Source of the DNA: Actinomycetota bacterium
Lineage (GTDB): Bacteria; Actinomycetota; Actinomycetes; Nanopelagicales; Nanopelagicaceae
Reading direction: 5' to 3'
DNA length: 32,427 nt
Assembly (NCBI GenBank): GCA_009698845.1
Contig: WLPI01000008.1
Location: forward strand, 1 to 32,427
The notes below the pieces were generated by a model. That model saw only the letters and a program-made list of their open reading frames with translations, was not told the origin of the DNA and searched no databases. Numbering within the stretch: position 1 is the first letter of the stretch; the number at the start of each line of letters is the position of its first letter. The translations under genes were made by a program, and so were the position numbers. This document shows, in pieces, positions 3,058 through 24,429 of the stretch.

Positions 3058-4275
3058 ATGGGTCGATCTACAGTAAGGGTTTATCAGGAACGCTGGTTTC
3101 CTTTTGGAAATCTTCCCGCTGCCCTAAATGAGTTTGAAGCAAAGACAGGAATCGCCACTGAGCTTGTGTGGGATTTCGTCGGTGTCGGCACGCTTGAACA
3201 CATGTTTGATCAGATGACCGAGTCTTTTCATTCGCCAGACCCAGCATTTGATTTGATCTGCAATGACGAAGTGATTTTGCAGCAGATGGGCGATCTGAAC
3301 TTAGTAGAGGATTTAGCTCCACGAATGCGTGCGCATAATCTGAATCTAGATGATGTTACCCAAGCGACTCGTCAGGCAGCGATGCAGGGAGAAAAAGTTC
3401 TGGGATTGCCGTGCGTCAACGTAAGTGGATCACTTCTCTATCGCAGAGATCTCTTTGAAAAATATGGATTACAGATTCCGCAAACGTGGGAAGAGTTGAA
3501 GTCAGTTGCCGCTGAACTACAAAGTGCAGTGCGCGCAGATGGACAATCTGATTTTTACGGATTTGAAACTCGCGGAGCAGCAGGCGGTGGCCATTCGGTC
3601 TGGACCATCGGATCATTTCTGGGTTCATTTGGAGCACGATGGATTGATGCAGATGGAAAAGCTTGCTCCCCAGATGAACGACATTTTGCTGCGCTAAATA
3701 CCTATCTAGATATTTTGAATACAGTCTCACCACCAGAACAAGGAATGATGAGTTTTCCAGAGATTCGCCGAGATTTCGCCGCCGGACGAGCAGGAATAAT
3801 TATGGATGTCGGTATGGAATATGCGCATGTATTAGGCACAAATCCAGAACTAGCAGAACGCAGCGGCGTAGCACTTGTTCCTGCTGGCCCTGCAGGTCGC
3901 GCACCAAATCTCTACAGCCCTCTTTGGTCGATACCTTCAACTTCACATCTGAAAGATGAAGCATTTGAATTAGCAATGTTCTTAACATCCAAGGCGCAAT
4001 TACTAGAAGATGGCCTCAAGAGCAACGCTCTGGAGACTTCTTCACTTGAAGTGCTCGGCTCTGCGCAGTTCGATAAACATTTTCGATCTGATGTCCTGGA
4101 AGTGGCGCGCATTAACGCAACAATTGCTCAAGAAGAGCGTCCGATTTCCCGCGCTGGTCTGAAGGCCTGCGAAATAGTAGGCAACACCGTAAACGCTGCA
4201 GTAGAAAAAAGAGTAAGTACCAGTGAAGCGCTCAACGGCATCTACGAAGAGTTAACGCAGCTGCTCAAGAAATAG
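3058..4275 (+). CDS. Extracellular solute-binding-protein family 1 homologue lacking a signal peptide
   Basis: Sugar SBP-like motifs (YRRDLFEKYGLQIPQTWEELKSVAAEL; FAAGRAGIIMDVG). Protein starts at the first beta strand; in-frame TAA at 3034-3036 rules out an upstream signal sequence. Confidence 0.85.
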   Translation: MGRSTVRVYQERWFPFGNLPAALNEFEAKTGIATELVWDFVGVGTLEHMFDQMTESFHSPDPAFDLICNDEVILQQMGDLNLVEDLAPRMRAHNLNLDDVTQATRQAAMQGEKVLGLPCVNVSGSLLYRRDLFEKYGLQIPQTWEELKSVAAELQSAVRADGQSDFYGFETRGAAGGGHSVWTIGSFLGSFGARWIDADGKACSPDERHFAALNTYLDILNTVSPPEQGMMSFPEIRRDFAAGRAGIIMDVGMEYAHVLGTNPELAERSGVALVPAGPAGRAPNLYSPLWSIPSTSHLKDEAFELAMFLTSKAQLLEDGLKSNALETSSLEVLGSAQFDKHFRSDVLEVARINATIAQEERPISRAGLKACEIVGNTVNAAVEKRVSTSEALNGIYEELTQLLKK

Positions 4276-7502: not shown

Positions 7503-8576
7503 GTGCACCTACCGCTGCGATCAGTAACCATTTCACTGACTCTGCTTGCCCTTGTATCAATTGGCCTGGGCAACACAGCCAACGCCGCAACTCCTAAACC
7601 GGGAGCCACATGCCCCAATGCAGGAAGCTCAGTAATTGAGAACGGTAAGAAATTTACATGTGTTAAATCTGGCAAGAAGCAGATATGGAGTAAGGGCGTA
7701 GCTGTTAACAAACCCGCCACCACGCAGAGTGATCCTTTTGCAATCTATGGAAAAGATGCAGCTCGCTTCAAAGCGGTCGACGAATACGGCGCAAAACTTG
7801 TCAGCACAAGAATCAAAAGTGCACCTTCCCTTAACGTCATTCTGCAATCACCCAGCGATAAAGCGGTCATTCGCATGACCGAAAATGCTCAATATGCCTT
7901 TACTCTCTATGAGCAACTGATGCCATTAGGTTTTGTTCCCAAATGGATTGTCGGTGAAGATGAAGCTTGGATAAAGGACCAGTTGAAAGAAGTTTCCCCA
8001 TGTATGTCTTGGCTTTCTCCTAATCAAGGCGGAGCTAGCTGTCGCATAACAGCAGTCTGGCGCGGAATCAAAATTCGTGATGATGCGGCAATGCGCACCA
8101 CCATGTTGGTGCAAGGTGGCCATGAGCTCTTCCACCTCTACCAACAAGAACTCCAAAAAGAACACTTCGCGAAAATTCCTGACTGGTTTAGAGAGGGTTC
8201 TGCAAGCGTTGGTATGGGAATAGTTCTTACACACTTTGAAGATCGAAAGTCTTTTGCCAATTACGGAGCCGCGCAAAAAGCAGAGTTAAGCGCCAGAGAT
8301 AAGACACAGTGCAAGGCTGCTCTCGACAAATGGGAGAAGAATCTTGCCGCCGAAGGTTTTGGATCCAACAACGGCTGCGAATATGGCCTTGGGCTATTGA
8401 TGAATGAGTATTTGGTCATGAAAGGCCACACCCTCAATGACGTGCTGGAAGTAATCAGATTAATCGGTAATGGCAGTGACTTCCCGACTGCTTTTCAGCA
8501 GATCTATAAGATATCGACTGCAGATTTCTTCACACAGCTACGTACCTACCTCAAGACACTCACTTATGGCTGGTAG
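7503..8576 (+). CDS. Secreted HExxH putative metallopeptidase with N-terminal two-Cys module
   Basis: Signal peptide; HELFH at 8121-8135 followed by WFREGSAS (candidate third ligand Glu at 8193-8195); GTG start. Confidence 0.72.
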   Translation: MHLPLRSVTISLTLLALVSIGLGNTANAATPKPGATCPNAGSSVIENGKKFTCVKSGKKQIWSKGVAVNKPATTQSDPFAIYGKDAARFKAVDEYGAKLVSTRIKSAPSLNVILQSPSDKAVIRMTENAQYAFTLYEQLMPLGFVPKWIVGEDEAWIKDQLKEVSPCMSWLSPNQGGASCRITAVWRGIKIRDDAAMRTTMLVQGGHELFHLYQQELQKEHFAKIPDWFREGSASVGMGIVLTHFEDRKSFANYGAAQKAELSARDKTQCKAALDKWEKNLAAEGFGSNNGCEYGLGLLMNEYLVMKGHTLNDVLEVIRLIGNGSDFPTAFQQIYKISTADFFTQLRTYLKTLTYGW

Positions 8577-8646
8577 TGCGCTCACTCTATTTGCTTAGTT
8601 CATGGGGCCAAAGAGAGATTTCTGCCCCATTGCTACGATTCTGCCC

Positions 8647-10281
8647 ATGAGACGTTTGATTTTTGCGTTAATCGTTCTTCTTACAAGTTCTGCTCTACCT
8701 TCGGTAGCAAGTGAAGAAGACAGCGTTACTTCAGACTCTCTTTCATTTGGTGCTTCATTCCCACTCACTGGTGCAGCAAGTCCTGGAATAAGTTCTTACT
8801 ATTCTGGAATCAGTGCCTACTTCTCATATGTAAACGACAACGGTGGAATCTACGGGAGAAAAATAAACTTTGTTAAAAAAGATGACAGCAATATCGCAGG
8901 ACGAGCTGTCACAAGTAATTCTGAGTTGATTTTGAAAGAAATGGTGCTTGCACTTATTTCAACAGCACCTGGCTGTGCCTCTCAAATGGCTTTGCAATCA
9001 GGTGTTAGCCCAGGTAGGAGAGGCATACCCAATCTTTTTGTAGATTGCTTCGTCGAGAAAAACTCTGACGATTCAGAGCAGTCTCCTGCCTCAACTAATT
9101 ACTACAGTAAAGTAAGTGAACTCAATCAAATAACGATTCTAAAGTCATACGCGGATAAGAATTTTCCGAATCAGAAAATTGCTCTGGTTTATCAAGATGA
9201 TTCATATGGGTTGGCGATATCCAAAATTAAATCGGATCCTAAAATTCATTGCACCCAATCTTTCCCAGCCGGGTCAGCAGGCACAGCCCTAGGTACTCTC
9301 GCATATATGTGTAGTTTGAACGGTGGCCTTAAGGATGGCGACTTGGTTTTCTACTCGGGCAGCGCGAGTGGTCTTGGCTCGATGATCGCAATATTCCAAA
9401 GTAAAAACTTGAATCTAAAGTATTTTGTTAATGATGATGCATTCAATCAAAGCGTATTTGCAGCTATGCGACTCCCAAATACCATAAACCCAGAGATTTA
9501 CACCGTCAGTAGTAACAGCCTTATCTCTGAAACCTCTAACCAGACTGTTGCAACTTTCCTTTCGATTGCTCAGAAATATCGTGGCAGCAGCACGCTAGAT
9601 CAACGCTTCCTAAATGGAATGAATGCTGGTTACATCGTAAGTAATCTCTTAGGAGCCTTAGGTCCTGACGTCACTAGAGAGAGATTAGTGAAAGCAATGG
9701 ATCTCTACGGTGCCCAATTTGATGCACTTGGATTAAGTGAGAGGTCTCAAAACACAGGAACTCGGTTTATGCCGACGGGCGGTGTAGTTGTGAAAAATAC
9801 TGGATTATCCAGTGAAGCAGTTTCGGAGGTTATGTCGGTCGAAAACGGGAGAGTTTCCAGCAACTCAAGGAAGCAGATCGCAATCTCGGCTAAAGGTTTG
9901 CCGGTACTGGTTCAGAAGCTACCTAATTCAGCTCCAGCAACTAAAGCACCCACACCCACACCTGCAGCAACGCCAAGTAAAACTTCTGAGCCAACTCCTT
10001 CGCAAACTGAAGTTTCCGACCTTGATGGCGAAGAGGAACCAACCTTCGGCAAGATCTCTGTGAAAAGAGAGAAGAACAAGTACATGATTTCAATTTCAAG
10101 TAACTTGCCCAATGAGAATCTTCAAGTTCGTGCAACCAAAAGAGGACAGAGAGCTATTTCCTTCAAAGTCGCAACAGACGATGACGGGTCAGCGAAATTC
10201 AACACATCTCGTTCTTTAAGTGGATATCAGGTTGCGCTCTCGCTAGACGGGGAAATCTTGAGCTCGGTCAAGGCTCTCTAG
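8647..10281 (+). CDS. Branched-chain amino acid/LIV-type ABC substrate-binding protein (Peripla_BP_6-like), with Pro/Thr linker and C-terminal extension
   Basis: LSFGASFPLTGAASPGISSYYSGISAYFSYVNDNGGIYGRKINFVKKDD; signal peptide from ATG 8647 (ORF track start 8602 is upstream); linker APATKAPTPTPAATPSKTSEPTPSQTE. Confidence 0.85.
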   Translation: MRRLIFALIVLLTSSALPSVASEEDSVTSDSLSFGASFPLTGAASPGISSYYSGISAYFSYVNDNGGIYGRKINFVKKDDSNIAGRAVTSNSELILKEMVLALISTAPGCASQMALQSGVSPGRRGIPNLFVDCFVEKNSDDSEQSPASTNYYSKVSELNQITILKSYADKNFPNQKIALVYQDDSYGLAISKIKSDPKIHCTQSFPAGSAGTALGTLAYMCSLNGGLKDGDLVFYSGSASGLGSMIAIFQSKNLNLKYFVNDDAFNQSVFAAMRLPNTINPEIYTVSSNSLISETSNQTVATFLSIAQKYRGSSTLDQRFLNGMNAGYIVSNLLGALGPDVTRERLVKAMDLYGAQFDALGLSERSQNTGTRFMPTGGVVVKNTGLSSEAVSEVMSVENGRVSSNSRKQIAISAKGLPVLVQKLPNSAPATKAPTPTPAATPSKTSEPTPSQTEVSDLDGEEEPTFGKISVKREKNKYMISISSNLPNENLQVRATKRGQRAISFKVATDDDGSAKFNTSRSLSGYQVALSLDGEILSSVKAL

Positions 10282-10818: not shown

Positions 10819-11550
10819 CTAACGTCCGAAGACAGTTCCCCCGCTTACTCCAATGATTTGGCCTGTTATATATCCGGCCTCCTTCGAGGCAAGAAAACCG
10901 ACGGTATCTGCAACATCTTCTAAGCTACCGGCTCGCTTCAATAGGGATCTCTCTACGCGCACTTTACGGAAATCTTCATTCATGCGCTCACCAAAAAACT
11001 CGGTATCTGGAATGAACCCGGGATTGACGAGATTTGCAGTCACATCACCTTCCGCTAAGTTCTGAGCTAACCAATAGATCCATCCGTGCATCGCTGCTTT
11101 AGCTGCACCGTACGAACCACCGTAACCACTACCAAGTTGTGCGCCAATAGAACCAATTCCAATGATTCTTCCGCCCGGACGGGAGATATTCTCACGGAGC
11201 GCTTCTACTAGAAGAACAGATGTCATCAGGTTTTGATCTATATCCGCACGCCATTCATAGTCAATCTCATTCAGATCTGTGGGAGTTTTTGCGGCGGTGC
11301 CACCAGCAGCGCAAATAATTACATCAACTTTTGCCGAGCCAATTCTGTCTCGAACGATTTGAGCACCAGAAACATTAGAAAGATCGGCGACAATGAAATT
11401 TGCGTTGGCTCCCATTGTTCCTGCAGCATCTTTAAGCTTCTGCTCTCGACGACCTACGATAAAGACTTCATCGCCTCGAGCAGCAAACCATTGAGCGCAA
11501 GCCTGTCCAATTCCGGATCCACCGCCACTAACTACAATCCTTCTTGTCAC
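10819..11550 (-). CDS. SDR-family oxidoreductase
   Basis: VSGGGSGIGQACAQWFAARG, ICAAGG, YGGSYGAAKAAMHGW, ITGQIIGVSGG; 4-bp overlap with ABC ATPase gene. Confidence 0.9.
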   Translation of the reverse strand: MTRRIVVSGGGSGIGQACAQWFAARGDEVFIVGRREQKLKDAAGTMGANANFIVADLSNVSGAQIVRDRIGSAKVDVIICAAGGTAAKTPTDLNEIDYEWRADIDQNLMTSVLLVEALRENISRPGGRIIGIGSIGAQLGSGYGGSYGAAKAAMHGWIYWLAQNLAEGDVTANLVNPGFIPDTEFFGERMNEDFRKVRVERSLLKRAGSLEDVADTVGFLASKEAGYITGQIIGVSGGTVFGR

Positions 11551-12701
11551 TGGAAGCGGGATCCAGTTTCGAGATTAAACCAGGAAGCATCCTTGAGATT
11601 AAACTCAACGAAACAATGATCTCCAGAATTCAGCGTTGAATCACCGGGAATGCGCATGTAGTGAAGATTACTGGACGCCTTAGTAATTCTTGAATCTTCC
11701 GCCTGTTTTGCAAAATTAAATGCAACTAAGGTTTCCGCGCCCAATCGTTCAACCACCCTCACTACGACAGGGATGCCTTCACCAGATTCAGATTGCTTTA
11801 GCTTTTCCGGACGTACACCAAAGATCACTCGCTTAGAATCGAAGTTTGGTATTGAGTGACCAGTAAGGTCTAAGCGATCCCCGCTAGGTAAATGAATTAT
11901 TTGGCCATCGACTTGTACTTCGAAAAGATTCATGGGAGGCGAACCTATAAATTTTGCAACAAAGACATTGGCTGGCTTGTCATAAATTTCCTTAGGCGTG
12001 CCATGCTGCTGAATTACTCCACCATCGAGCAAGATAATTTGAGTTCCCATTGTCATTGCTTCTACCTGGTCGTGAGTAACATAAACAAAGGTCTTGTGAA
12101 CCTTTTGATACAGATTGGTAATCTCTACGCGCATTTGTGCTCGTAACTTCGCATCAAGATTAGAGAGTGGTTCATCCAATAGGTATATGGATGGGTCTCT
12201 GACTAGCGCACGCGCCAGCGCTACACGCTGACGTTGTCCACCAGAAAGGGTCTTAGGGCGACGATTTAGATAGGAAGTTAGCTCCATAGTTTCAGCAATT
12301 TCAGAAATCTTCTTTTGTATTTCAGGATTGCGAAGATCGGCACGCCTCTTGAAGTGTCCGACAACAGGTATGTGCTGCCACCACCTGAAGTTATCCATAA
12401 GTAGTGGGAAAGCGATGTTTGCCCTTACCGTTAAGTGTGGATATAGCGCATAAGATTGAAAGACAAAAGCAACGCTTCGCTTCTTTGGTTCAAGATCATT
12501 TACAACTAGATCATCGAATTGAATCTGCCCCTCGGTGATGTCAATAAGTCCTGCAATCATTCGTAGCATTGTTGACTTTCCACAACCTGATGGTCCAAGC
12601 AGAACAAGAAATTGCTGATCAGGGATTTCTGCCGAGAAATTCTTTATAACCAGAGTTTCTCCAAATGACTTGGATACATCTTTGAATATTAATTTTGGCA
12701 T
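11547..12701 (-). CDS. Sugar ABC transporter ATP-binding protein (UgpC/MalK type)
   Basis: GPSGCGKSTMLR Walker A, LSGGQRQRVALARAL signature, YLLDEPLSNLDAKLR Walker B, C-terminal MOBE-type region. Confidence 0.95.
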   Translation of the reverse strand: MPKLIFKDVSKSFGETLVIKNFSAEIPDQQFLVLLGPSGCGKSTMLRMIAGLIDITEGQIQFDDLVVNDLEPKKRSVAFVFQSYALYPHLTVRANIAFPLLMDNFRWWQHIPVVGHFKRRADLRNPEIQKKISEIAETMELTSYLNRRPKTLSGGQRQRVALARALVRDPSIYLLDEPLSNLDAKLRAQMRVEITNLYQKVHKTFVYVTHDQVEAMTMGTQIILLDGGVIQQHGTPKEIYDKPANVFVAKFIGSPPMNLFEVQVDGQIIHLPSGDRLDLTGHSIPNFDSKRVIFGVRPEKLKQSESGEGIPVVVRVVERLGAETLVAFNFAKQAEDSRITKASSNLHYMRIPGDSTLNSGDHCFVEFNLKDASWFNLETGSRFQ

Positions 12702-12703
12702 TT

Positions 12704-13534
12704 TTAACCCTTCACCGATCCTGATGTTAGTCCACTAATGATTTGACGCTGCATAATCAGAAAGAAAAGTATTGCGGGTATTGTGAATACCAATGCCGCA
12801 GAAAAGACCGTGGCCAGAGGTGTCACAAATTCACCGAGGAAGGAAGCTAGTCCAACTGTGGCAAGCCATTTTTCAGATGAAGTGATAAATGTGGATGCGA
12901 AAAGAAAATCATTCCATCCATCAAAGAATAGGATCACTGAAGCAGCGGCAATAGATGGCGCCGTTAATGGCATCATTATTTGAGTAAGTACTGCAAGACG
13001 TGGCGTTCCATCTACTCTTGCCGCCTCTTCTATTTCATAGGGAATTCCATCCATTGCGGACTTAATAATCCACACTGCAACGGGCATAACGAAAGCAGTA
13101 TTTGCCAGGACTAGACCTGTGAATCCGTTAAGTAGTCCTAGGCTCATAAACAGTGCGTACATGGGAACAATAAGAAGCGCCTCAGGAAGCATTTGTGTCG
13201 CAAAGAGAGAAAAACCTAAGAGGCCTTTTCCAAAGAAGCGAAATCGGGAGAGCCCGTAAGCTGCCAGAACAGCCATTGCAAGGCTCGAGATCGTGGTACC
13301 AAGAGCGACAACCGCACTATTTCGCAGCCAGCGCCAGATAGGAACCTCTGTAAAGAAGACATTAAATATCTGAAGAGAATCTTTTACTCGAGGGATGAGG
13401 TTTTGTCCTCCGAAAAGTCCTCCTACTGAAGTGAGGGAGGTGTTGTACATCCAGTAGACAGGGAATATTGCAAAAGATGCTAGAACAAAAACGAATATCC
13501 AGCGGAGAATCTTTGTAAGCGAAACTTTTTTCAT
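12704..13534 (-). CDS. Carbohydrate ABC transporter permease (UgpE/MalG type)
   Basis: EAARVDGTPRLAVLTQIMMPLTAPSIAA EAA motif, TM helices. Confidence 0.93.
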   Translation of the reverse strand: MKKVSLTKILRWIFVFVLASFAIFPVYWMYNTSLTSVGGLFGGQNLIPRVKDSLQIFNVFFTEVPIWRWLRNSAVVALGTTISSLAMAVLAAYGLSRFRFFGKGLLGFSLFATQMLPEALLIVPMYALFMSLGLLNGFTGLVLANTAFVMPVAVWIIKSAMDGIPYEIEEAARVDGTPRLAVLTQIMMPLTAPSIAAASVILFFDGWNDFLFASTFITSSEKWLATVGLASFLGEFVTPLATVFSAALVFTIPAILFFLIMQRQIISGLTSGSVKG

Positions 13535-14454
13535 AATGAGTCCCGCTTTGCGTTCTTTCTATCAACAGCAAAATAGACAATGGTGACCGAAAGGGAGAGA
13601 AGTAGACCCAAGATTCCGAGTGCTGCAGCACGTCCCAATTCGGAAGATTCAAATGCTTGTTTATACACATTAATTACAATTGTGTTTGTCGCTCCACTGG
13701 GGCCACCACCGGTTAAGAGATAAATAATCTCGAACCTACGGATTGACCAAATCGTCATGAGCAGTGATGCAACCCGAATAGTTGGCATTAAGTGGGGGAT
13801 TACCACAGTCTTAAATGCACTAAATCGATCGGCACCATCTACCTTAGATGCCTCGCGTAGTTCTTCAGGGACGCTTTGCAGAGCAGCGAGAACAACCAAC
13901 ATAATAAATGGAAATACTTTCCAGATACTTGCAAAAGCTACCGAGAACATACCTAAGGAAGGATCTATCAACCAGCCCTTTTGTCCCATTCCCAGGGCTC
14001 GTACTGCTTGATTGGCGACACCGCTATCGTAGTTATAAATCCAATTATAAATTAAGACTACGGATACGCCCGGGACTGCCCAGGGAACAGTCAGCATCGA
14101 ACGAAAGATTGCTCGACCTGGAAGCTTTTCATTTATTGCGATTGCAGAGATAACTCCAAGAGATACCGCGCCCACGACTACTACGAATGTATAGACGATA
14201 GTTGTCCAGAGTGAAGAGTAAAAGGATTGATCTGTCAGATACCTTCGGTAATTTTCAAACCCTACAAACTTGCCTTCAGTTGGGGCAAGAAGCAGGCTAT
14301 CTGTAAAGCTGAACCAGAAACCGCGTAATAGCGGTATTGAGGTGAAAAGAATTAAGTAAATAGTTGCAGCACCGACAAAAAAGTACGGCATAAGACGACT
14401 CTCGCCAACGTGTTCCGAGTATCTACGAGTCTTCTTCTTAGCCTGTTTGCTCAA
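13531..14454 (-). CDS. Carbohydrate ABC transporter permease (UgpA/MalF type)
   Basis: EASKVDGADRFSAFKTVVIPHLMPTI EAA motif, TM helices; 4-bp overlap with next gene. Confidence 0.93.
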   Translation of the reverse strand: MSKQAKKKTRRYSEHVGESRLMPYFFVGAATIYLILFTSIPLLRGFWFSFTDSLLLAPTEGKFVGFENYRRYLTDQSFYSSLWTTIVYTFVVVVGAVSLGVISAIAINEKLPGRAIFRSMLTVPWAVPGVSVVLIYNWIYNYDSGVANQAVRALGMGQKGWLIDPSLGMFSVAFASIWKVFPFIMLVVLAALQSVPEELREASKVDGADRFSAFKTVVIPHLMPTIRVASLLMTIWSIRRFEIIYLLTGGGPSGATNTIVINVYKQAFESSELGRAAALGILGLLLSLSVTIVYFAVDRKNAKRDSL

Positions 14455-14579: not shown

Positions 14580-15977
14580 CTAGCTCAGATTATCTTGAGC
14601 CTTTTTAAGCGCTTCAGCAGGTGTCATTTTTCCAAGAAGCACTTGCTCAATTTGAGTGAGTACTTCCTTTCGGATTTCAGAAGTCGATGACTCGAAGCCA
14701 TCAGGCACTGAACTCCTAGTTGATTTACCGTTTTCTTTGTAGGCAGCTGCCCATGGGTTTTCAAGAAGGAAAGCCGCAGGAACGATTGTTTCGGTAGCAA
14801 CTGTTGAGGTATTACCGATCATTTCTGAAATTGCCTGCTGTGTGTCCTTGATGAGGAACCAGTTCAAGAAGTCCTTAGCCAGTGCCTTGTTCTTAGAGTT
14901 GGCATTAATTCCGAAAAGGATTCCAACCTGGCTGGTTGACTTTCCAGGGAATGGCAACTTAGAAGCGCCGACTGACTTTGAAGGAACCTTCTCGCCAATC
15001 ATTGCTGGTAGGGCTCCGGTTGCGTCAATCATCATTCCAACGAGTCCTTGCCCGAACTTGGAACGGAAGGTAGAAGCATCATCACCAACAGAGAACCCAC
15101 CTGAATCATAAACTGCCTTGTAGGCGGTGACTGCAGCGATATTTTGAGGGCTGTCGATGGTGAGTTTCTCTCCATCTGACCAACCACCATTAAATCCGAC
15201 TACCCAGTTGTTGAAGTCAATCCACCATGGAGTTTCTTCAGCTAGACGACTGCGAACCGCGAAACCGGTAACACCTGTCTTCTCCTTAATAGTCTTTGCT
15301 GCCGCAACCAACTCTGCTGCAGTGGTAGGTGGCTTTACGCCAGCCTTTTCTAGAATGTCTTTATTCCAGAAGAATGCGTAAGGGGCAACTTGCCAAGTGA
15401 TTGCTAATTGCTTTCCACGCCATATGCCGCCCTTGTTTGACTCATTCATTGTCTTCTTGGTTGCTTCTGAGAAGACATTATCTAGAGGCTCCAAGAGATT
15501 TGATCGAGCAAGTTCTGGGTAAAAAGTATCTGGAATTGTAAAGAGATCAGGTCCGCCTTTTGCTGACAACTGAATCTTCATTTTTGTTTCGTATACAGCG
15601 CGTACAATTCCCACTGTTTCAATTTTTGCATTTGGGTTGTACTTTTCATAAGACTTAATCACTGCTTGCATTTCGGCACCGTACTTAGGTGCTAGGAAGT
15701 CCCAGTGAGCGATATTTAGAGTTCCACTAGGTTTAACGGCAGCAGCAGCAGGTTTTGCAGCAGCAGCATTCTTGGCCTTCTTCCAGACCAGCTTATTTCC
15801 TACTTTTGTGCATACAAATGCAACATCACCTGCTTGGCCTTTTGCACCAGCTTTACTACACGCAGCATTGAGTTTTGGATCAGCTGCACTTCCCTGAGGT
15901 GCAACTACCACCAGAGACGTCAGTACTAAGGATGTAAGTACCAGGCTCTTAACTAATAAATTCTTCAAGATATTCAT
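14580..15977 (-). CDS. Extracellular sugar-binding protein (family 1) with N-terminal two-Cys module and Ala/Lys/Pro linker
   Basis: SBP motifs (YETKMKIQLSAKGGPDLFTIPDTFYPEL; FFWNKDILEKAGVKPPTTAAELVAAAKTI). Start moved to ATG 15977, preceded by AAGGGGAG and followed by a signal peptide; ORF track start 16034 is upstream. Confidence 0.9.
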   Translation of the reverse strand: MNILKNLLVKSLVLTSLVLTSLVVVAPQGSAADPKLNAACSKAGAKGQAGDVAFVCTKVGNKLVWKKAKNAAAAKPAAAAVKPSGTLNIAHWDFLAPKYGAEMQAVIKSYEKYNPNAKIETVGIVRAVYETKMKIQLSAKGGPDLFTIPDTFYPELARSNLLEPLDNVFSEATKKTMNESNKGGIWRGKQLAITWQVAPYAFFWNKDILEKAGVKPPTTAAELVAAAKTIKEKTGVTGFAVRSRLAEETPWWIDFNNWVVGFNGGWSDGEKLTIDSPQNIAAVTAYKAVYDSGGFSVGDDASTFRSKFGQGLVGMMIDATGALPAMIGEKVPSKSVGASKLPFPGKSTSQVGILFGINANSKNKALAKDFLNWFLIKDTQQAISEMIGNTSTVATETIVPAAFLLENPWAAAYKENGKSTRSSVPDGFESSTSEIRKEVLTQIEQVLLGKMTPAEALKKAQDNLS

Positions 15978-15994
15978 CTCCCCTTCTAGTTGAG

Positions 15995-16014
15995 CGATGG
16001 CGTTGTTTCCATCG
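15995..16014. repeat. Inverted repeat in SBP gene leader
   Basis: CGATGG-N8-CCATCG, perfect. Confidence 0.5.
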
Positions 16015-16021
16015 AGTGGTA

Positions 16022-16039
16022 GGTTCATAGACATGAACC
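16022..16039. repeat. Inverted repeat in SBP gene leader
   Basis: GGTTCAT-AGAC-ATGAACC, perfect 7-bp arms. Confidence 0.55.
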
Positions 16040-16202: not shown

Positions 16203-16889
16203 ATGAAACGCATACTCTCAACGATTCTCATCTCATGCTTAGCTTTAGGAATTAGTCCTTACGCAGCCAGCGCTGCAATTAAGCCAGGCTCTGCATGTAA
16301 AAAAGAGGGTCAAGTTAGCACCGTGTCAGGTAAGAAATACACGTGTATCAACAAGAGTAAGAAATTGGTCTGGGATAAGGGCGTGAAATCTAATTCCTCA
16401 GACGAAGGAATTTCCGTAGACAAGAATCTGTTCAGCGTTGATGTAACTGTCCCTGCATCTTTCTATGAGGGTACAAAGATAACTCAGGAAGAATTGAGCG
16501 CCGATGCAGCAAAGAAGGGGTATGGAAAGGCAAAGCTAAACGCTGATGGCTCCGTCTCTTTCCGAATGTCGAAATCACAACATAAGGCAGCTTTGGCTGA
16601 CATGAAAAAGTCTGTTGACGATTACATTCAGGAGACAGTAAATGATTCTCCAAAAATTTTCCGCGAAATCACCTACAACAAGAAAATTTCAGAGTTCAGC
16701 GTTTCAGTGAATAAGGCAAACTTTGAAGAAGATCTGGCTGCCGGCATGATTGGTTTCGGAATCGGCATTCTTTCAATGTTCTACCAAATGTTTGATGGTG
16801 CTGGAGAAAATCCCAAGACTGTCATCAAGATTATCGACCAGAGCACGGGTAAAGTTTTTGATACCCAGACTTGGCCAGAAAAAGAATAG
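16203..16889 (+). CDS. Exported hypothetical protein with N-terminal two-Cys module
   Basis: Signal peptide MKRILSTILISCLALGISPYAASA then IKPGSACKKEGQVSTVSGKKYTCINKSKKLVWDKG. Confidence 0.7.
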   Translation: MKRILSTILISCLALGISPYAASAAIKPGSACKKEGQVSTVSGKKYTCINKSKKLVWDKGVKSNSSDEGISVDKNLFSVDVTVPASFYEGTKITQEELSADAAKKGYGKAKLNADGSVSFRMSKSQHKAALADMKKSVDDYIQETVNDSPKIFREITYNKKISEFSVSVNKANFEEDLAAGMIGFGIGILSMFYQMFDGAGENPKTVIKIIDQSTGKVFDTQTWPEKE

Positions 16890-17458
16890 TGATCGTTGGT
16901 TCGCAGGTTTCAAAACTTGCTATTGCTTCATTGGTTGTCCTTCTTTGCTCGGGTTGCTCAGCAGTGGGTGACGGGAAAACAACGATAAAACCGTCACCAT
17001 TGAGCAGTTTTTCAGAAGATGCAGACGCAGAAATGGGGAGCAGAAATAACCCAATTGCACTTGGTAAATCGGTTGTTGTAAATGGCTGGAAAGTTCAAGT
17101 GGAATCAGTAAATAAAGATGCTCTTAAAGTTGTAAGAGCATCAGATCCATATTCGGAGTCTCCCGCTTCAAATGAGCGCTACGTGCTCTTAAAGATTAGA
17201 GCCACTTATATCGGTGAAGAAAGTGGCGAGCCTAGCTCTGACCTAAGATTCAAAATAGTAGGTTCAAAAGGAAATACATTCTCAAAATCTTGCGGGTATT
17301 CCTCAGATACTTTTGATAACAACGGAGAGACTTTTCCAGACGCTACGGTCGAAGGAAGCCTTTGCTTCACAGTCGATGCAAATCAGATTTCAGGCGCGAC
17401 GGTCTCAGTTCAGGGAGACTATTCCACGGAAAATCGGAAGTTCCTCGCAATTGATTGA
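16889..17458 (+). CDS. Putative lipoprotein, DUF4352-like
   Basis: GTG at 16889 (TAGTG overlap with upstream stop) gives a signal ending LLCSGC lipobox; NPIALGKSVVVNGWKVQVESV..NERYVLLKIRATYIGEES. Confidence 0.7.
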   Translation: MIVGSQVSKLAIASLVVLLCSGCSAVGDGKTTIKPSPLSSFSEDADAEMGSRNNPIALGKSVVVNGWKVQVESVNKDALKVVRASDPYSESPASNERYVLLKIRATYIGEESGEPSSDLRFKIVGSKGNTFSKSCGYSSDTFDNNGETFPDATVEGSLCFTVDANQISGATVSVQGDYSTENRKFLAID

Positions 17459-23295: not shown

Positions 23296-24429
23296 ATGGA
23301 AGAAAAAGTGGGAATAGGGAGAGATACAGATTTCTCTCGTCGCTCAATACTACGTACCTCGGCACTAGCCGGCGCTGGAATTGGAGCAGCACAACTACTG
23401 GGTGCTTCTCCAGCAGTGGCATTAGGTGGAACAGCTAATGCAAAGCTAGATAAGGCAATCAAAGATATGGTTAAAGGACGCACAATAAAGGTTGGCTTCA
23501 CACCTCCTGTATTGTCTGAAAACTTTACACAGATTGAAAGTGCGGCTTGGCGCAAGATGGCTGAGTTTGAGAAGCGCTTTGGAGTCAAATGGGTTTGGGA
23601 ACGCCAAGCACCAGTTGGTGACTTCAACGCCGTTCAGGGAACTTTAGGAATTGTTCAGTCATGGATCAGTCGTCGATTTGATGCTATTGCAGTATGTACT
23701 GGTGCCAACTTCGCGACGGTACAAGATCTGTACAAGACCGCAAATTCAAAGGGACTTAAGGTTTTCCAGTTTAACCAACCTGCAGAGCTGTACCCAGAAT
23801 CTGACCTTGAGACAGTTTCGAATATCGGCTACGACAATCGTTGGCAGTCCGGTTACCTCGCTGGCACATACTTGGCAAAAGCCTTGGGCGGGAAAGGAAA
23901 AATCCTACAAATTTGGGGACCATCTGGTTCAGATTGGACTCGCGGCCGTAGGATTGGATTCGACAAAGCCCTTAAGGAGAACCCTGGTATTAAAGTTGTA
24001 GGGGAAGCCGATGGAGGATACGTTCGTGACAAGGGATTTACTGCAGCACAGGACCTCTTGACAAAGTATCCTGATGTGAACGCAATCTACGGCGAAAATG
24101 AGGAAATGGCACTCGGTGCGTCTCAAGCAATCGATGCAGCTGGCCTCAAGCACTGGAATGGAAAGACCGGTATTTTGACAATTGGCGCTGACGGTCTCAT
24201 TTCTGGATTTAAAAAAATCGCGGAAGGCAAGCTAACTGCCACAGTTGATATTGGCGGAATCGACCAGGGTCAAAATCTGATTGAAACCATTTTTGCAACT
24301 GTTGCACTCGGTCAGACTGTAACTCAAATTGTTAACAACCCAACACAGGTTGTGGATAAGTCAAATTACAAATGGCACCAGGCTTATGCGCAGTGGGCAC
24401 TTGACACACCACGTAAGTATGGCAAGTAA
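23296..24429 (+). CDS. Sugar-binding protein (Peripla_BP_4/RbsB-like) with Tat-type signal
   Basis: SRRSILRTSALAGAGIGAAQLLGASPAVA twin-Arg signal; DAIAVCTGANFATVQDLYKTANSKGLKVFQFNQP; SGYLAGTYLAKALGGKGKILQIWG. Confidence 0.9.
   Translation: MEEKVGIGRDTDFSRRSILRTSALAGAGIGAAQLLGASPAVALGGTANAKLDKAIKDMVKGRTIKVGFTPPVLSENFTQIESAAWRKMAEFEKRFGVKWVWERQAPVGDFNAVQGTLGIVQSWISRRFDAIAVCTGANFATVQDLYKTANSKGLKVFQFNQPAELYPESDLETVSNIGYDNRWQSGYLAGTYLAKALGGKGKILQIWGPSGSDWTRGRRIGFDKALKENPGIKVVGEADGGYVRDKGFTAAQDLLTKYPDVNAIYGENEEMALGASQAIDAAGLKHWNGKTGILTIGADGLISGFKKIAEGKLTATVDIGGIDQGQNLIETIFATVALGQTVTQIVNNPTQVVDKSNYKWHQAYAQWALDTPRKYGK

Follow-up and report, generated by a model that had tools for sequence, protein, structure and literature searches.

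Small portable domains carried by many unrelated exported proteins, such as LysM, CWB2, SLH, SH3b and SLAP, are thought to retain these proteins at the bacterial envelope, and the wall-binding part of Lactobacillus S-layer proteins is cationic. Lipobox/Lgt and sortase (LPXTG) anchoring also keep an exported protein on the cell, the same end result that we propose for the module described here. CBM5/12 domains are about 40 residues long, form a small beta-sheet and are joined to enzymes by linkers; the Excalibur domain and other two-Cys modules are short and occur on secreted actinobacterial proteins. Our module resembles the wall-binding domains in being small, portable, cationic and carried by unrelated exported proteins, and its working principle may be analogous to that of known non-covalent wall-binding modules. 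It differs from them in its length of about 38 residues, in its two Cys and in standing nearly always first after the signal peptide, and searches of Pfam, PDB and BFVD revealed no match to any of them in sequence or fold. We propose, at a rough probability of 55%, that it is an autonomous, disulfide-stabilised and strongly cationic tag that binds the envelope and so keeps exported proteins at the surface.

Three copies of the module lie in the window, the whole stretch of 32,427 nucleotides (32 kb) that was analysed. The copies, their genes and their neighbours are:

7503 to 7586, plus strand: signal peptide of the metallopeptidase, with GTG start, MHLPLRSVTISLTLLALVSIGLGNTANA; hydrophobic core and AxA-like end read from the sequence
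7587 to 7700, plus strand: module copy 1, with two Cys, basic, ending in QIWSKGV; from translation, profile match and predicted fold
7701 to 7730, plus strand: short flexible linker; pLDDT below 50 at mature residues 42-49
7731 to 8573, plus strand: domain of an exported gluzincin-like zinc metallopeptidase; HELFH at 8121-8135, invariant Glu of REGSA at 8193-8195
11547 to 14454, minus strand: whole block of partner importer genes
11547 to 12701, minus strand: MalK-type ATPase, importer partner of the tagged binding protein
12704 to 13534, minus strand: permease 1, importer partner of the tagged binding protein
13531 to 14454, minus strand: permease 2, importer partner of the tagged binding protein
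14580 to 16034, minus strand: gene of the ABC solute-binding protein that carries module copy 2 (SBP_bac_1, 2.4e-33), without a lipobox
15771 to 15884, minus strand: module copy 2, ADPKLNAACSKAGAKGQAGDVAFVCTKVGNKLVWKKAK, directly behind the signal peptide; from translation and profile match
16203 to 16274, plus strand: signal peptide of an unknown protein, MKRILSTILISCLALGISPYAASA
16275 to 16385, plus strand: module copy 3, AIKPGSACKKEGQVSTVSGKKYTCINKSKKLVWDKGV; from translation and profile match
16386 to 16889, plus strand: remainder of the exported protein behind copy 3 (228 aa in all), without a known family in Pfam or NCBIfam

A sequence-only reading had reported the two-Cys pattern at these three places, and translation together with profile matches confirmed every one of them; its positions were right, and the minus strand of copy 2 went unmentioned there. 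The 114 bases at 7587-7700 on the plus strand translate exactly as ATPKPGATCPNAGSSVIENGKKFTCVKSGKKQIWSKGV, with the signal peptide immediately upstream, and the gene of copy 2 likely has its true start at an internal Met near 15977. Searched against the draft genome (1.21 Mb in 75 contigs, 80% complete), a single-sequence query recovered copy 3 at E=2.7e-7 and copy 2 at E=0.0036, and a family profile built from 25 copies, the window's own among them, matched these at 3e-18 and 1.3e-13, respectively. The likeness of the three copies is therefore far above chance; chance similarity is ruled out by the profile E-values and by the placement of the module behind signal peptides (below). Three of the six significant profile matches of the genome fall in the window, where even placement would give 0.16.

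The metallopeptidase domain at 7731-8573 matched no Pfam or NCBIfam family above cut-off. The protein is one of a set of 20 with an invariant HExxH and a downstream Glu, the gluzincin pattern, and a fold search with the full-length peptidase gave nothing better than weak M1-aminopeptidase-like matches, the best of them at E 0.39. Its nearest named relatives are encoded by a lake metagenome genome (94% identity) and by strain IMCC26077 (CP015606.1; 77%), an acI-C1 isolate (PMC5301498). A third relative, at 75% identity, comes from a record titled Bifidobacterium breve that we take to be a mislabelled lake metagenome bin. A comparison of window 8576-8650 with L067:3338-4566 of the 94%-identical relative shows a conserved short leader downstream of the metallopeptidase, behind which different genes occupy the same spot, Peripla_BP_6 in the window and another module-bearing protein in the relative.

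Of 152 distinct copies, 150 keep the pair Cys10 and Cys26 and 147 keep Trp35, and Gly7, Lys12, Lys28, Gly30, Lys31, Lys32 and Leu33 are strongly conserved. The two Cys probably form a disulfide, since they are conserved as a pair. Two Rieske-type carriers depart from the pattern, L128 having lost both Cys and L117 the first Cys only, with the rest of the motif kept. The module has a mean net charge of +8 (lowest +4), compared with -0.1 per 40 residues in the rest of the same proteins. An AlphaFold2 model from 46 sequences predicted a three-stranded sheet (strands 17-20, 23-30 and 33-36) with a pLDDT of 86.5 and a pTM of 0.58. In a model of the whole mature metallopeptidase, whose mean pLDDT was 67, the module scored 80-86 and was followed by a segment under 50, which argues for a separate domain on a linker.

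The sequence-only reading had not recognised the module as a named family, and that judgement survived the search for a characterised domain: Pfam, NCBIfam, PHROGs, PDB sequence, PDB fold and BFVD gave no significant match to the module. With the module alone and with the 25 members as queries, the best Pfam match was CBM_5_12 (E=0.014, one of the 25 members, below the curated cut-off), NCBIfam gave none, and the best PHROGs match, a family of unknown function, was not significant (E=0.012, 2/25 members). Foldseek with a 43-residue query found nothing for the module at E<=0.001; chitinase C/B binding domains appeared at E 1.5-3 with a TM of about 0.3-0.5. Alignment with hhalign to eight actinobacterial CBM5/12 copies gave a probability of 24% over 17 columns, the hairpin, and hence no support for profile-level homology. 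CBM5/12, the only repeated lead, falls short of a claim of membership, as Pfam, Foldseek and hhalign were all non-significant. What likeness there is lies in the size, the sheet and the linkers, in a G-x-x-x-x-x-x-G-x-x-Y-x-C/A hairpin and in an aromatic end; the module has none of the further conserved aromatic residues of CBM5/12 and also occurs on importer binding proteins. It likewise differs from Excalibur and similar modules, with no Pfam match at E up to 1 and a basic composition that has no acidic calcium-binding motif. Cultured-phage records held no match to the module and plasmid records a single non-significant one. In the literature on acI genomes, secretomes and phages, searched for the most part outside subscription papers, we found no description of it.

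The module is constant and its cargo is not: mean column identity is 57% within the module and 10% over the full carrier length. Carriers are mostly zinc metallopeptidases and are otherwise unrelated. Pfam searches of the carriers from near-complete genomes and the window identified Rieske (5), reprolysin-type peptidases (5), M23 (4) and SBP_bac_1 (3), with single carriers of Cyt-b5, COX2 (COX2/cupredoxin), Cu2_monooxygenase, M6 and others; across all loci, 109 carriers extend for 150 residues or more behind the module, and 68 of them have HExxH, compared with 0.3% of shuffles. Related carriers are among those counted, so that none of these counts is independent. Behind 67 of 146 copies, Pro/Thr/Ser make up at least 50% of a 30-residue stretch, the usual layout of binding module, linker and enzyme. 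This layout, together with the weak and non-significant CBM5/12 resemblance, would suit a module that binds an extracellular substrate, such as algal or detrital polysaccharide, chitin or particles, and brings exoenzymes to their food. Such a role is unlikely in view of the importer solute-binding, Rieske and cytochrome b5 proteins that carry the module with no evident use for polysaccharide, and of the phages that carry it on exported peptidases.

The excess of HExxH among the carriers makes a peptidase-linked role conceivable, a point against the retention reading; together with the N-terminal position, which is usual for propeptides, it could also mean that the module keeps a metallopeptidase inactive or aids its folding and is later removed. 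Forty-one of the 109 longer carriers have no HExxH, solute-binding, Rieske and cytochrome b5 proteins included; in the structure prediction the module forms a domain of its own, followed by a disordered linker; and two Cys kept together do not fit a cysteine switch. The non-peptidase cargo and the separate predicted domain disfavour a propeptide or inhibitor, and we hold that role to be quite improbable.

The module stands where the sequence-only reading had placed it, behind the signal peptides of otherwise unrelated exported proteins and thus at their mature N termini. From 12 near-complete order-mates we gathered every match with E<=0.01 (65 distinct copies), and by a hydropathy rule, used in place of a trained predictor, a hydrophobic signal-peptide core directly precedes 64 of the 65; random placement in the same proteins would give about six. 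The first Cys follows the core at a median of 15 residues (interquartile 14-17). An AxA-like cleavage motif precedes it in 63/63 testable copies, a loose motif that proves little alone. Carriers from the other class (below) show the same layout, and some Rieske-like proteins among them (L036, L158) have Tat-like twin-arginine signals. Across all loci, the departures from this layout are an internal copy (L126), a copy near the C terminus (L027, whose 5' end is incomplete) and tandem copies at L148 and L037.

So strict a position right behind the cleavage site might indicate an early-mature-region export signal, acting with Sec or a chaperone or as a folding aid and having no role after translocation. 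Dense positive charge just behind a signal peptide is a hindrance to Sec export and not a help, Tat-like signals precede the module as well, and copies occur internally, near a C terminus and in tandem (L126, L027, L148), all of which make us give an export signal little credence. A redox- or metal-active unit, suggested by two near-invariant Cys with a Trp and by some redox-active cargo, is very improbable, given Cys that are 16 positions apart and not CxxC, no conserved His/Asp/Glu partners for a metal, a best zinc-ribbon match of 13.7 bits against a cut-off of 33.2, and a copy (L128) that has lost both Cys and keeps the rest of the motif.

The sequence-only reading had suggested a role in surface attachment, sorting or wall binding, and the results support that suggestion. 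The retention reading builds on the observed position, conservation, charge, predicted autonomous fold, cargo diversity and distribution of the module, from which a role in surface attachment is inferred. After Sec or Tat export and cleavage of the signal peptide, the module would fold on its own, and its basic/aromatic face would bind a component of the envelope of the producing cell itself, one that is constant and probably anionic. Its cargo, be it a peptidase, a solute-binding protein or a redox protein, would then be held at the surface on a linker and not be lost by diffusion. A constant module with changing cargo suggests that the binding partner is probably constant too, and the producing cell, the only thing that all carriers share, is favoured as its source. 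The net charge of +8 is the one observation that speaks for peptidoglycan, teichoic acid or another envelope polymer as the ligand.

The importer in the window bears on this reading. It is a complete ABC importer of the MalK type (SBP, two permeases and ATPase), and its binding protein bears copy 2. A Gram-positive ABC binding protein is normally a lipoprotein and has to stay near the membrane, so a tagged binding protein without a lipobox supports retention by the module. Two further module-bearing SBP_bac_1 proteins (L133, L134) adjoin a permease-like gene fragment, unconfirmed by Pfam. Three other binding-protein genes of the window also have no lipobox (3058-4275, 8602-10281 and 23296-24429); one has no evident signal peptide, one a type I signal and one a Tat-like signal. 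Those at 8602-10281 and 23296-24429 lack the module as well, so other ways must exist beside it.

The module is not itself a misread lipobox. The pattern [LVI]-x-[AGS]-C at the signal-peptide end is absent, a conserved Gly standing at -3 of the first module Cys, and the Cys that do match a lipobox (13/184) lie inside the hydrophobic core and not at the cleavage site, a position that rules out such a misreading. Lgt is present in 13/13 genomes, so the module does not simply stand in for lipoprotein anchoring that is absent. Within the window, 16871-17458 is a lipoprotein-like gene, which encodes a DUF4352-like protein with a lipobox-like signal-peptide end (LCSGC) and overlaps the end of the third module-bearing gene. 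Lgt in all genomes and this gene together argue that the module is an additional route and not a substitute. Sortase was found in 1/13 genomes and was not seen in the window's own draft genome, which is incomplete; none of the three window proteins ends in a recognisable LPXTG-type sorting signal. The near-absence of sortase supports retention by the module, which would thus act as a non-covalent tag beside lipoprotein anchoring in a lineage mostly without sortase.

The order to which the window belongs is probably the acI freshwater lineage, because a 77%-identical metallopeptidase gene is present in the acI-C1 strain IMCC26077; the lineage is named 'Ca. Nanopelagicales' in the literature (PMC10202952), and acI actinobacteria are the most abundant bacteria in most freshwater lakes (PMC5301498). 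In our literature search we found no account of how acI keep exoenzymes and binding proteins at their surface in very dilute water. A 38-residue module in 255 of the 296 genomes of the order, with at most 15 matches per genome, makes this question of surface retention testable. Outside the order the module is sparse. An even draw across the phylum (397 genomes) found it in the window's own genome and one other only. The latter belongs to a different class, and 27 of the 101 genomes of its family have the module; these 27 measure about 1.2-2.2 Mb and span five genera, and none listed above 2.2 Mb carries it. A class-wide draw with a wider profile added nine genomes from two more families, all of 1.5-2.6 Mb. 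The genome sizes of the carriers indicate that the module goes with small-genome actinobacteria of at least two classes.

An IMG/VR scan identified 13 contigs that encode a signal peptide, the module and a metallopeptidase (L098 is cut before the catalytic part); their viral status is the IMG/VR assignment, and 5-10 kb per contig was examined. Several are near-identical, leaving about eight independent viral cases. The hosts would be acI bacteria, judging from the module that these contigs carry. L097, L099, L102, L103, L105, L107, L108 and L109 encode exported zinc metallopeptidases that bear the module and a signal peptide of host type, and at L097, L103, L105 and L107 an endolysin-like gene (CHAP-like by eye) lies within a few kb. 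The 42 neighbouring proteins tested include four matches to endolysin families, four to the phage HslV-type peptidase family and seven to the 2OG-Fe(II) oxygenase family, with Hsp20 and GroES among the remainder. Module-bearing exported metallopeptidases beside endolysin genes point to the infected host's own envelope as the site of binding. On a tentative view, which we consider possible and far from established, the module is a dedicated surface-display system, typical of the lineage, of genome-streamlined freshwater actinobacteria; it would have spread between two small-genome classes and been adopted by phages to place peptidases on the infected cell near lysis. If so, one module and one abundant envelope component would display a changing set of exoenzymes and transport receptors. 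The module could serve to list part of the surface proteome and as a marker for phage-borne exported peptidases.

Also encoded in these phage regions is a large secreted protein rich in Ala and Thr (L099:1867-3651, L108:1611-3395, L105:1-1365 and L109:44-1147, the last similar by eye only), which has no Pfam match and looks surface-layer-type. Several order-mates have a host protein of 630-700 residues with which the L099 copy shares 41-43% identity. This host homologue was considered as the partner of the module and rejected: it was found in 6/18 genomes tested and in 0/5 module-bearing genomes of the other class, a distribution that does not follow that of the module. One short exported protein (about 215-240 residues; L136-L143; L034 = G000:C33:10518-10589), found about once per genome in many near-complete genomes, carries a variant module, KISNGVACKK...YKCAKNPLVKNSKLTWLS-x-D/E-C.
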